Assembly (NCBI RefSeq): GCF_006385175.1
Contig: NZ_VFIY01000005.1
Coordinates: 627,501 to 691,500, forward strand
Reading direction: 5' to 3'
DNA length: 64,000 bases
DNA from: Emcibacter nanhaiensis
Lineage (GTDB): Bacteria; Pseudomonadota; Alphaproteobacteria; Sphingomonadales; Emcibacteraceae
A model generated the notes under the pieces. The model was given only the letters and a program-made list of their open reading frames with translations. It searched no databases and was not told the DNA's origin. The position numbers and the translations under genes are program-made. Shown here in pieces: positions 5,158-44,313 of the stretch (positions are counted from its first letter, which is position 1; the number at the start of each line of letters is the position of its first letter).

Positions 5158-5336
5158 CGCCCCCTCTGTCATGGAACCTGAGAGATTTACCCCGTCGGTG
5201 GGGCGATCCGGTTAAGGAAAACCCGCTTTCCAGAGTGCTGTTCCCTGCGGTCCTTTTGCCTGAGAGTTTCCGGGGCGGTTGCTCCTTCGGCGCCGGCACT
5301 GACTGATTAGGTCAGGCGGTCTCTCCCGCAGGGTGT
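5158..5336 (-). promoter_or_regulatory. Glycine riboswitch (tandem, gcvT element)
   Basis: Read on the minus strand, the leader contains the type-I glycine aptamer landmarks in order: GGGAGAGACCGCC, GCCGAAGGAGCAA, AAACTCTCAGGCAAAAGGACCG. It is followed by a second aptamer-like half with ACTCTGGAAAGC, a CCGACGGGGTAA segment and ATCTCTCAGGT, ending in GACAGAGGGG. The element lies between a good promoter (5350-5377) and gcvT. In the second half the usual GCCGAAGG is ACCGACGG, which may weaken it. Known members of this class switch the gcv operon on when glycine is abundant. Confidence 0.95.
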
Positions 5337-5349
5337 ATTTGCGATGTCC

Positions 5350-13258: not shown

Positions 13259-13636
13259 TTAGTTGATCGCCCAGGTCAGGGGCAGAACAAAGCTCAGGTT
13301 GTTGTCGCTCAGTTCGGCCGGCGGTGTCGGCAGCGGGTTGATGCGAGCCACCAGGGCTTCAACTTCCTGGTCGAAAACTTCGTGACCGGAAGATTCGATC
13401 AGTTCGTGCGAAGTGATGGCGCCAGAGCGGTCGATGCTGATTTTCACTTTGGCTTTGCCTTCCAGCTCGTCAGCCATGGCAGCGCGGGGATAAACCTGTT
13501 TTTTGGCTACCAGTTTCACGATAGAAGTCTGCCAGGATTTGATGTCGCCGGCGCTTGCAGTCTGTGCGAATGAGAGGGGAAGTGAAAGTGCAGAAACCAG
13601 AGCGGCAACTTTCAGAACGGTCTTAACGTTGATCAT
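13259..13636 (-). CDS. Small periplasmic TonB C-terminal-domain protein
   Basis: This 125-residue protein has a cleavable signal peptide (about residues 1-29, ending TASAGD) followed directly by a TonB-like C-terminal domain. The pattern 'YPRAAMADELEGKAKVKISIDRSG' (in outline) with a later 'V..INPLPTPP' and a terminal beta strand is characteristic. It lacks the N-terminal membrane anchor and proline-rich linker of real TonB, so it probably does not transduce energy from ExbBD. It may act as a free periplasmic domain. It stands alone between a terminator and a long noncoding gap. Confidence 0.85.
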   Translation of the reverse strand: MINVKTVLKVAALVSALSLPLSFAQTASAGDIKSWQTSIVKLVAKKQVYPRAAMADELEGKAKVKISIDRSGAITSHELIESSGHEVFDQEVEALVARINPLPTPPAELSDNNLSFVLPLTWAIN

Positions 13637-13917: not shown

Positions 13918-14115
13918 GAAAAAAAATGCCGGGACAAGCCCGGCATAGTCAAAAATATAGGGAGGTTTCATGCCTAGGAGACAATGAAACTGGATATAAC
14001 CCCAAAGGGGAGAAGAGGTTATATCCGACTGAAATAAAAAGGGAGGATTTCAGTCTTTAGACGCATACAACATCTGGAGGGGTATATAGGGAGACTCATT
14101 TCAATTGAGAACCAC
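13918..14115 (-). ncRNA. Candidate multi-hairpin small RNA with CCUCCC anti-Shine-Dalgarno loops (locus 1)
   Basis: Read on the minus strand this gap contains three consecutive perfect stems. They are 14027-14035/14047-14055 (9 bp), 13992-14001/14017-14026 (10 bp) and 13965-13971/13984-13990 (7 bp). Their loops are C/U-rich: CCTCCCTTTTT, TCTTCTCCCCTTTGG and TGTCTCCTAGGC. Single-stranded copies of CTCCCTATA occur before the first stem and after the third. The array ends in an 8-bp GC-rich terminator stem (13926-13933/13939-13946) with a run of seven to eight T. The terminator fixes the strand. The 5' end is uncertain. The RNA could be independent or derived from the 3' UTR of the luxR-type gene ending at 14192. 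Confidence 0.68.
13919..13946 (-). terminator. Intrinsic terminator of candidate small RNA locus 1
   Basis: On the minus strand ATGCCGGG pairs with CCCGGCAT across a 5-nt loop and is followed by a T-run. There is no T-run on the plus strand. No minus-strand protein gene lies immediately upstream except luxR, 245 bases away. Confidence 0.85.
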
Positions 14116-14130
14116 CTAATATCACAGGTC

Positions 14131-14153
14131 AGGTATGCATTTCATGCATACCT
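14131..14153. promoter_or_regulatory. Perfect 10+3+10 dyad next to the LuxR-type gene
   Basis: AGGTATGCAT and ATGCATACCT flank a 3-base centre, giving a 23-base perfect dyad 39 bases 3' of the luxR stop codon and upstream of the candidate small RNA. There is no T-run beside it, so it is not a standard terminator. It could be an operator bound by the LuxR-type protein or another dimeric regulator. Confidence 0.5.
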
Positions 14154-14191
14154 AGTGAGGTAGGGTTGAAATATCTTTCTGCCTTAGGGCG

Positions 14192-14974
14192 TTAGAGGAT
14201 AATTTCCCGCAGTCTGATGGCAATACTGACTGCATGGGCGCGGTTAAACGCCCCCAGTTTTCTCTTGGCATTTTCAAGGTGCCGGTGAGCCGTGTTGTGG
14301 CTGATGGACAGGATGTCGGCAATCTGATGATCTGTTTTGCCGTAAGCTGACCAGGTGATGCAATCCTGTTCCCGGGGCGTGAGGATAAATTTCTGGCGAT
14401 GCGGTTCACTGTTATTGTTGACGATTCTGTCCGCCCTGTCATGAAGGTGGAGCCCCAGAAGGTGCAACATGTTGATCCGGCGCTGGTCGGAAAATTCGCG
14501 GTCGCCGACAATCGTCACGACGGCGGGCAGGGTTCCCGGTTTGTGAATCGGAATCGTCAGGAAATGCTTCAGTCCGGCTTCGGCGGCTTCCTCAAACAGC
14601 CGGACCTGCTGGGGGGTATATTTGTCCTGTTTGATTTCATCGTCCCAGATCAACGGCATGTGTGTTTTCAGGCATTCGGTCAGGACCGGGTCGATTTTGA
14701 AATAACACTGGGCGATATATCTCTCAACCCAGTGCCCGGGATAGTGCAGGATCTGGACGGCATTTGACGGTGGTCGTTCAAAATTGGTTATGGAAAAACA
14801 ATTGAACCACGGGCAGTCCAACTCTGCCAGGGCCACGATAAAATTATCCTTTAATAATGTAAGGCTGGAAGCCGATTGTGACGCCTTTACAAATTTTTCA
14901 ACTACAGTTGCGGCGGCAGGGGAGGCGCCGGGCCGGTTGCCGGAACCGTTTCTGCGACTGTCAGGATCAGGCAT
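14192..14974 (-). CDS. LuxR-family regulator with autoinducer-binding domain
   Basis: The 260-residue product has an N-terminal autoinducer-binding domain (about 25-185) with the ligand-pocket positions W82, Y86, D95-P96 and W110 in a W-x3-Y-x8-DP arrangement. A C-terminal LuxR helix-turn-helix (about 196-258, starting FILTPREQDCITWSAYGKT) follows. It should bind an acyl-homoserine lactone or a similar signal and DNA. No luxI synthase gene is near, so it is a solo in this window. I chose the ATG at 14974, which overlaps the algH stop by eight bases. Starts at 15004 (ATG) or 15007 (TTG) are possible. It is followed by a dyad and a candidate small RNA. Confidence 0.9.
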   Translation of the reverse strand: MPDPDSRRNGSGNRPGASPAAATVVEKFVKASQSASSLTLLKDNFIVALAELDCPWFNCFSITNFERPPSNAVQILHYPGHWVERYIAQCYFKIDPVLTECLKTHMPLIWDDEIKQDKYTPQQVRLFEEAAEAGLKHFLTIPIHKPGTLPAVVTIVGDREFSDQRRINMLHLLGLHLHDRADRIVNNNSEPHRQKFILTPREQDCITWSAYGKTDHQIADILSISHNTAHRHLENAKRKLGAFNRAHAVSIAIRLREIIL

Positions 14975-15554
14975 GTCCGCTATCCATGGAAAGCAGGGAC
15001 ACATCAACCCCCAGTTTCGCCATCGCCCGTGGCCATTTCAGTTCGATGTCTGTGCGGAAGACAAGTTCTTCATCCGCCTCGATGTTAAGCCAGCTGTTTT
15101 GCTGAAGCTCTTCCTCCAACTGCCCCGCGCCCCAGCCGCTGTATCCCAGGGCAATGATATAATCCTGGGGACCTTCTCCTGCGGCAATGGCGCTCAGGAT
15201 GTCGACGGTGGCCGTGAGAGCGATGGTTTCCGAGACAATCAAAGTGGAGTCCTGTACATAATCCGCAGAGTGCAGGATAAAACCGCGGCCGATTTCAACC
15301 GGCCCGCCGGCGTGAAGCATGATCCGCTCGAACTCGGGAATGTCGCTGCCGAAGATCTCGCTGCCCACGTCTATATCGAGCTGATCCAGCAACGAGAGAA
15401 AATCAATGTTTGTGGTTCTCTTGTTGATGATCAGGCCCATGGCTCCCTCTTCACTATGGGAACAGACATAAATTACACAATGATCAAACCTGGGATCAGT
15501 CATGCCGGGCATGGCCAGTAGCAACTGGCCTTCCAGATAGCCTTGTTTCTTCAC
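14967..15554 (-). CDS. YqgE/AlgH family protein
   Basis: This 195-residue cytoplasmic protein has the conserved UPF0301 start (LEGQLLLAMPGMTDPRFDHCVIYVCSHSEEGAMGLIIN, given here as a pattern), the GGPV segment and the GYSGWGAGQLEEEL motif. The biochemical role of the family is unsettled; in Pseudomonas AlgH was linked to alginate regulation. It is translationally coupled to the downstream luxR-type gene, a link worth noting because AlgH has been tied to global regulation. Confidence 0.93.
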   Translation of the reverse strand: MKKQGYLEGQLLLAMPGMTDPRFDHCVIYVCSHSEEGAMGLIINKRTTNIDFLSLLDQLDIDVGSEIFGSDIPEFERIMLHAGGPVEIGRGFILHSADYVQDSTLIVSETIALTATVDILSAIAAGEGPQDYIIALGYSGWGAGQLEEELQQNSWLNIEADEELVFRTDIELKWPRAMAKLGVDVSLLSMDSGHA

Positions 15555-42376: not shown

Positions 42377-42531
42377 GATCCTCCCTACATATAGGGTCTG
42401 CGCGGGTTACTGCCCTGTGCGTGGTTTTCTTTATTCCCTGGGGCTATAATTTTCATCCGGGGAGCTGTCCCTGTGGAGACCGTGGTCTCTTTATACGGCG
42501 CCCACCTGTCTATCAGGTTCCGGAGGATTAA
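42377..42531 (+). ncRNA. ssrS: 6S RNA
   Basis: A noncoding stretch of about 155 bases lies between the chemoreceptor terminator and fau. Its ends pair (ATCCTCC at 42378 with GGAGGAT at 42522) and it folds into one long interrupted hairpin. The internal blocks GCGGGTTACTGCCCTGTGCGTGG, CCCTGGGGC, GGGGAGCTGTCCCTGTGGAGACCGTGG and GCGCCCACCTG (described, not quoted in full beyond 20 each) fit my knowledge of alphaproteobacterial 6S RNA. Location next to fau and downstream of zapA is the conserved neighbourhood. 6S RNA binds sigma70 RNA polymerase in stationary phase. Confidence 0.85.
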
Positions 42532-42599
42532 ACATAAAATCACGGCAGCGATGGTCCCGCGCTCTTTAATTTACCGATAATCAGGATACTGGTCCGAGA

Positions 42600-44006: not shown

Positions 44007-44077
44007 GCCAGATTTGTAATATCGACATTCCCGGTTGCTTTTGCTAGCCTGAAGCCAGCTCCGCATGGTGCGGAGCG

Positions 44078-44231
44078 AGTTCTCAGGGCGGGGTGGAATT
44101 CCCCACCGGCGGTGAGGGGCTCAGGCCTCAAGCCCGCGAGCGCCATCTGCCTGTGGTTTATCGCAGATGGGTCAAGCAGATTCGGTGAAACTCCGAAGCC
44201 GACGGTCATAGTCCGGATGGAAGAGAGCGAA
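44078..44231 (+). promoter_or_regulatory. FMN riboswitch (RFN element)
   Basis: The RFN landmarks appear in order: TTCTCAGGGCGGGGTG, AATTCCCCACCGGCGGTGA, AGCCCGCGAGCG, then GCAGATTCGGTGAAACTCC and GAAGCCGACGGTCATAGTC, ending with GGATGGAAGAGAGCGA. The element lies 83 bases before the lumazine synthase gene and should turn it off when FMN is abundant. Confidence 0.97.
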
Positions 44232-44313
44232 AGCAGAAAACGGTGCGTGTCTGCGCCCGTTCCTATTTTCGTACGCCTTGGTTCTGTTTTCTTGAATTGA
44301 AAAGGAGCAAACC

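Follow-up and report, generated by a model that had tools for sequence, protein, structure and literature searches.

A probable LsrB-activated, AbcR-type small RNA, enlarged and relocated, in Emcibacter nanhaiensis

What does the minus strand encode behind the LuxR-type gene of Emcibacter nanhaiensis, at positions 13918 to 14160 of the 64,000-nt stretch of DNA analysed here (the window)? The initial annotation described a multi-hairpin small RNA unexplained by any protein frame, and indeed no open reading frame of 60 aa or longer lies in this segment. Its minus strand has a fold of -81.5 kcal/mol (z = -7.0), and none of 200 shuffled sequences was equally stable. Reading the sequence confirmed the three perfect minus-strand stems of 9 bp (14055-14027), 10 bp (inside a 12-bp stem, 14026-13992) and 7 bp (13990-13965) with the loops named at the outset, as well as a strong terminator at the end (13946-13919). 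The array is not limited to three stems, however: it has five hairpins, and the 5′ one (14075-14059) had been missed. The gene and its parts are as follows.

13919 to 14076, minus strand: AbcR-like small RNA gene of 158 nt, with a putative 5′ end and with the end of the U-tract as its 3′ end
14059 to 14075, minus strand: hairpin SL1, 6 bp, from the minimum-energy fold
14027 to 14055, minus strand: hairpin SL2, 9 bp, loop CCUCCCUUUUU, with a fully unpaired anti-Shine-Dalgarno (aSD) site at 14046-14041; the stem shows pair changes
13992 to 14026, minus strand: hairpin SL3, 12 bp, loop UUCUCCCCUUU, with a fully unpaired aSD site at 14013-14007
13965 to 13990, minus strand: hairpin SL4, 7 + 4 bp, with UCUCC largely paired in the inner stem
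13947 to 13965, minus strand: single-stranded linker CCUCCCUAUAUUUUUGACU, an aSD site and an A/U-rich possible Hfq site
13919 to 13946, minus strand: strong Rho-independent terminator, AUGCCGGG-CUUGU-CCCGGCAU plus U-tract

Three aSD sites are exposed. The runs CCUCCC in SL2, UCUCCCC in SL3 and CCUCCC in the linker are essentially unpaired (probability about 0.98 for the linker CUCCC), and seeds of this kind fit any strong ribosome binding site. They differ in part from the three open loops originally proposed: those of SL2 and SL3 are unpaired, but the TCTCC of SL4 (mean unpaired 0.44) is closed mostly by a conserved inner stem. Two extra copies of CTCCCTATA had been placed between the stems. 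The second (13964-13956) is genuine single-stranded linker, in which CCUCCCUAU is conserved across the family, but the first (14093-14085) belongs to the -10 region of the promoter. Homologues begin with a conserved [CTA]AGATG 7 nt past the -10 box, and this is the basis for placing the putative start near 14076. The non-coding RNA is real but probably extends only over about 14076-13919, and 14077-14160 would be promoter and operator.

Covariation among relatives, suggested in the initial annotation as a check, proved strong. Of 32 family genomes, 29 gave a covariance-model match to the RNA, including all 22 good ones (completeness 90% or more, contamination 5% or less), and model R2 matched 13919..14076 over its full length with 124 bits. 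Minimum-energy folds of all 35 full-length relatives examined have hairpins at the positions of SL1, SL2, SL3, SL4 and the terminator, with small local variations. When RNAalifold was given the raw alignment, SL1 and SL2 were not recovered, probably owing to a MAFFT shift, and the named five-helix structure was used instead. Across 31 aligned sequences this structure has 93.2% of its cells paired, compared with 84.7% in shuffles, and two-sided pair changes occur in 110 cells against a shuffled value of 34.7, a count reached by none of 500 shuffles. When the partners were shifted by 1 to 3 columns, 34 or fewer of these changes were left. In SL3, 7 of the 8 counted pairs show two-sided changes; 97% of SL4 cells are paired. 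In the related genus g5 the SL2 stem was kept and the CUCCC run lost.

The same stems settle the strand. They contain 80 G-U and 11 A-C pairs, which identifies the RNA as the minus strand and not its complement. A plus-strand RNA whose GGA-rich loops (GGGAGG, AGGAGA, GGGGAGA) act as a CsrA/RsmA sponge would have been conceivable, as the complement folds too (z -4.6) and carries about six GGA motifs. Besides fitting the wobble pairs poorly, such an RNA would have a 3′ end without a U-tract, and the U-tract, promoter and operator of the copies all point to the minus strand. On the wobble pairs and the U-tract we rejected the sponge, to which we assign a negligible probability.

Is the RNA then governed by the gene beside it? 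The neighbourhood is occupied by three genes.

14192 to 15007, minus strand: LuxR-type gene (Autoind_bind and GerE), a neighbour outside the conserved unit
14967 to 15554, minus strand: yqgE/algH, the conserved upstream neighbour of the yqgE-type RNA copy in relatives
13259 to 13636, minus strand: gene for a small TonB-C-domain protein, a downstream neighbour found also in G001 and G002

The neighbour had been correctly recognised as LuxR-type, its protein containing an autoinducer-binding domain, and quorum-sensing control of the RNA had been suggested from its position. In its most explicit form this idea makes the RNA a 3′-UTR-derived small RNA, co-transcribed with luxR and cut from its mRNA by RNase E. 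The two lie on the same strand, with the RNA about 115 nt past the luxR stop, and the 3′ half of the RNA resembles SorX (27 bits), which is known to be 3′-UTR-derived. Synteny argues otherwise. Nine genomes, including the source genome, share the yqgE-RNA locus, and in the eight others the RNA follows yqgE directly; the LuxR gene stands between them in the source genome only and beside the RNA in no other family genome. The LuxR link is therefore incidental, and LuxR-linked control was rejected. The RNA also has a conserved -10 box of its own and a position-fixed LsrB operator (below). We consider excision from luxR mRNA very unlikely as the origin of the RNA, with luxR read-through a possible second source.

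Most family homologues occupy another type of locus, trxB-lsrB-RNA, which corresponds to the published order trxB-vtlR-abcR (PMC7486931). The source genome carries three copies of the RNA: besides the window copy, a tandem pair follows a LysR gene on another contig. The lsrB there follows a peroxiredoxin gene, not trxB. This second locus (G000 C14; L033:6201-8360) thus comprises the peroxiredoxin gene, a cysteine-free lsrB and two tandem RNAs, the first with the operator and the second without. In another genome, G002, a transposase-like ORF (L034:7049-7444, minus strand), so named by sequence only, lies between lsrB and an intact RNA.

Upstream of the window copy, the following control elements can be recognised.

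14084 to 14089, minus strand: -10 hexamer CTATAT, inside the first CTCCCTATA copy (14093-14085)
14126 to 14148, minus strand: predicted LsrB/VtlR operator TGCA-N6-GCAT-N3-TG-N3-T, TGCATGAAATGCATACCTGACCT, at -72 to -50 from the putative start
14132 to 14152, no strand assigned: palindrome GGTATGCAT-GAA-ATGCATACC, read from the sequence, which holds the operator core

When copies were aligned on [CTA]AGATG, CTATAT fell at about -13 to -8 and no -35 consensus was recognisable. Nearly all homologues carry the upstream palindrome. Of 39 promoters, 36 carry TGCR-N6-GCAT against 0.6 expected, its position being always -69 to -72; for GCAT-N3-TG-N3-T, confined to -60 to -62, the figures are 25 promoters against 1.0 expected. 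The 39 promoters are related sequences, so that these counts are not independent. About a third depart from one operator half. The GCAT-N3-TG-N3-T box is found in all nine yqgE-linked copies, and is lacking in the third copy of the source genome, the second of the tandem. In the window copy it reads GCATACCTGACCT at -62, and TGCA-N6-GCAT reads TGCATGAAATGCAT from -72. The published counterparts are GCAT-N3-TG-N3-T at -61 to -49 in PabcR1 (PMC8844928; PMC7486931) and TGCA-N6-GCAT at -72 to -60 in PnfeR1 (PMC10746234); PabcR2 was published as having no operator. The full operator occurs once in the 64-kb window and five times in the 3.96-Mb genome, two of the five being at RNAs of the family. 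The further matches (G000 C4:112718, C4:575404 and C15:142236) may mark other LsrB targets.

The LysR protein finds its best PDB match in A. tumefaciens LsrB (9HH1, 282 bits; next match, 124). Cysteines of A. tumefaciens LsrB were reported as a redox sensor (PMC11975290). LsrB proteins of the family mostly have none, and 67 of 97 distant LsrB proteins also have none; judging from these sequences, thiol oxidation is therefore probably not the inducing signal here. AbcR RNAs bind Hfq and repress mRNAs of ABC transporters, and an hfq gene is present in the source genome.

To which known RNAs does this one belong? At the gathering cut-off, Rfam, another check proposed at the outset, gave no family for the window RNA. 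A permissive search returned SorX at 27.2 bits (cut-off 46.6) and suhB/mmgR at 21.5 bits (cut-off 41), both on the 3′ module. The SorX, suhB/mmgR, RseX and RyhB matches obtained in this way were set aside as below the cut-offs and largely terminator-driven. The likeness to mmgR/SisA-D (alpha-r8, RF00519) and SorX (RF02784) consists of a hairpin, a single-stranded CCUCCCU and a terminator in the 3′ module; the core, locus and promoter control differ. Two lsrB-linked RNAs score above the Rfam SorX cut-off (L061:976-1047 and L051:1502-1571, both minus strand), which makes Rhodobacter SorX a possible derived relative of the lsrB-linked family.

Such matches could also mean that a separate aSD family, whether alpha-r8/mmgR (Sis), SorX, alpha-r14/NfeR1 or CcsR, converged on the same motif, and NfeR1 shares with the window RNA both the LsrB operator and the layout of three aSD hairpins. 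The window copy nevertheless stays below both Rfam cut-offs, and the alpha-R8 core UUUCCUCCCU of mmgR/suhB reads AAACCUCCCU in it; the alpha-R8 siblings have no common promoter motif. The NfeR1 and CcsR seed CCUCCUCCC is absent from the window copy, which thus lacks the triple hairpin of NfeR1, and the copies of the family as well as the class-wide matches described below occupy the trxB-lsrB-abcR position. Convergence is in our judgement unlikely.

Several C/U-rich loops that cover ribosome binding sites are a feature of LhrC of Listeria and of CcsR (cuckoo) of Rhodobacter. CcsR RNAs have CCUCCUCCC loops, lie in tandem copies behind ccaF1 and are under RpoH control. With both, the window RNA has the several C/U-rich loops in common, and no link of sequence, locus or regulator to either came to light. 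The comparison with CcsR-type RNAs first made holds as a loose likeness to other alphaproteobacterial aSD RNAs, but AbcR/alpha-r15 is closer, as functionally is NfeR1/alpha-r14.

Homology to AbcR could be followed through intermediates. The first covariance model, R1, contains no neighbour information, yet on 387 genomes of the class its best matches outside the family lay mostly directly behind trxB-lsrB. When R1 was run on 80 named LsrB loci from many orders, most gave a match immediately 3′ of lsrB, among them those of Kiloniella, Sneathiella (three tandem copies), Reyranella, Magnetovibrio, Tistlia and Oceanibacterium, and there was no minus-strand match below E 0.06. Three AbcR-like RNAs stand in tandem behind lsrB in L094, L098 and L112 (Sneathiella and a related MAG), only some of them with the operator. 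At the RNA position of Roseibium and Kaistia lsrB loci are RNAs with CTCCTCCC and TTCCCCTC, the published AbcR motifs (PMC8844928), or near variants. Direct comparison of R2 with the Roseibium RNAs was weak (19 to 22 bits, E 4e-4 to 3e-3). R3, a model built from 81 intermediates with the Roseibium and Kaistia motif RNAs left out of training, recovered Roseibium L123, L129, L118 and L136 with E-values from 1e-7 to 1e-6; L131 of Kaistia came out borderline at E 0.04, and L151 was missed despite bearing the published motifs. The E-values of R1 to R3 are rough. Homology of the window RNA to AbcR-motif RNAs is thus transitive, being strong only through the intermediates and not direct in these sequence models.

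The resemblance to AbcR1/AbcR2 (alpha-r15) of Agrobacterium, Sinorhizobium and Brucella extends beyond the trxB-lsrB/vtlR-RNA order of the relatives. Tandem copies, an LsrB operator at the same distance, aSD seeds exposed both in a hairpin loop and between hairpins, and an A/U stretch before the terminator are all shared, and the tandem copy without an operator in the source genome recalls PabcR2. In Brucella the two abcR genes lie on different chromosomes and not in tandem. The window RNA differs in having five hairpins in 158 nt and three exposed aSD seeds, where AbcR has three hairpins in 114 to 121 nt and two seeds; the exact sequences differ as well, and the alpha-r15 combination of three hairpins with CUCCUCCC and UUCCCCUC (or CUCCCA and GUUCCC) is not found in it. 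Its place in the order yqgE-luxR-RNA, not directly behind trxB-lsrB/vtlR, is a further difference. NfeR1 (alpha-r14) shares the LsrB-type operator TGCA-N6-GCAT and several aSD hairpins with freely varying stems (PMC10746234), but its 115 nt carry three identical CCUCCUCCC seeds, whereas the window RNA has five hairpins and seeds that differ. Because its size, hairpin number and exact motifs differ, the window RNA is not alpha-r15 in the narrow sense; because it has the operator, the exposed seeds, the sister-copy locus and the transitive homology, we class it as an AbcR-type RNA and a distant AbcR homologue.

Taken together, the window RNA is very probably an LsrB-activated, trans-acting translational repressor of the AbcR type, enlarged and relocated. 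Its anatomy, together with what has been published on AbcR and NfeR1, leads us to infer the following mode of action. LsrB/VtlR, a LysR regulator, would bind the predicted palindromic operator centred near -60 and activate a sigma-70-like promoter with a good -10 and no recognisable -35. The resulting 158-nt RNA would present its C/U-rich seeds in two loops, those of SL2 and SL3, and in the linker that precedes the terminator, and Hfq would bind the A/U-rich linker and the U-tail. Pairing of the seeds with the Shine-Dalgarno regions of a set of mRNAs would then block translation and promote decay; by analogy, the targets to be expected are nutrient-uptake genes. On this reading the window copy is a paralogue relocated to the yqgE locus with its operator, and two more copies stand in tandem behind lsrB.

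The alpha-r15 family was described only in Rhizobiaceae and Brucellaceae (PMC3712013), and a 2025 paper called LsrB unique to Rhizobiales (PMC11975290). Going by the loci compared here, both limits look too narrow: regulator, operator and RNA are joined in Emcibacteraceae/Kordiimonadaceae, and Kiloniella, Sneathiella, Reyranella, Rhodospirillales and others have the regulator along with the RNA. With its operator and sister copies as evidence, the LsrB-RNA module appears to be spread much more widely in Alphaproteobacteria than described. We lean slightly towards the broader view that LsrB and a multi-seed aSD RNA form an ancient module of the class, which gained and lost aSD hairpins, spread with its operator to new loci such as yqgE and left rhizobial AbcR, perhaps also NfeR1, as reduced offshoots; LsrB being mostly devoid of redox-sensing cysteines across the class, the module would read another signal. 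What LsrB senses without cysteines becomes a question in its own right. These harmless free-living bacteria also offer a setting for the study of a riboregulator needed elsewhere for virulence and symbiosis, and the natural series of RNAs with varying numbers of aSD seeds could serve to test why a repressor carries several. Our literature search, outside which subscription papers lay, found no paper on Emcibacter small RNAs, and priority is not certain.

The same 64-kb window contains three further RNAs above the Rfam cut-offs, a glycine riboswitch (5238-5338, minus strand), 6S RNA (42404-42561, plus strand) and an FMN riboswitch (44075-44232, plus strand).
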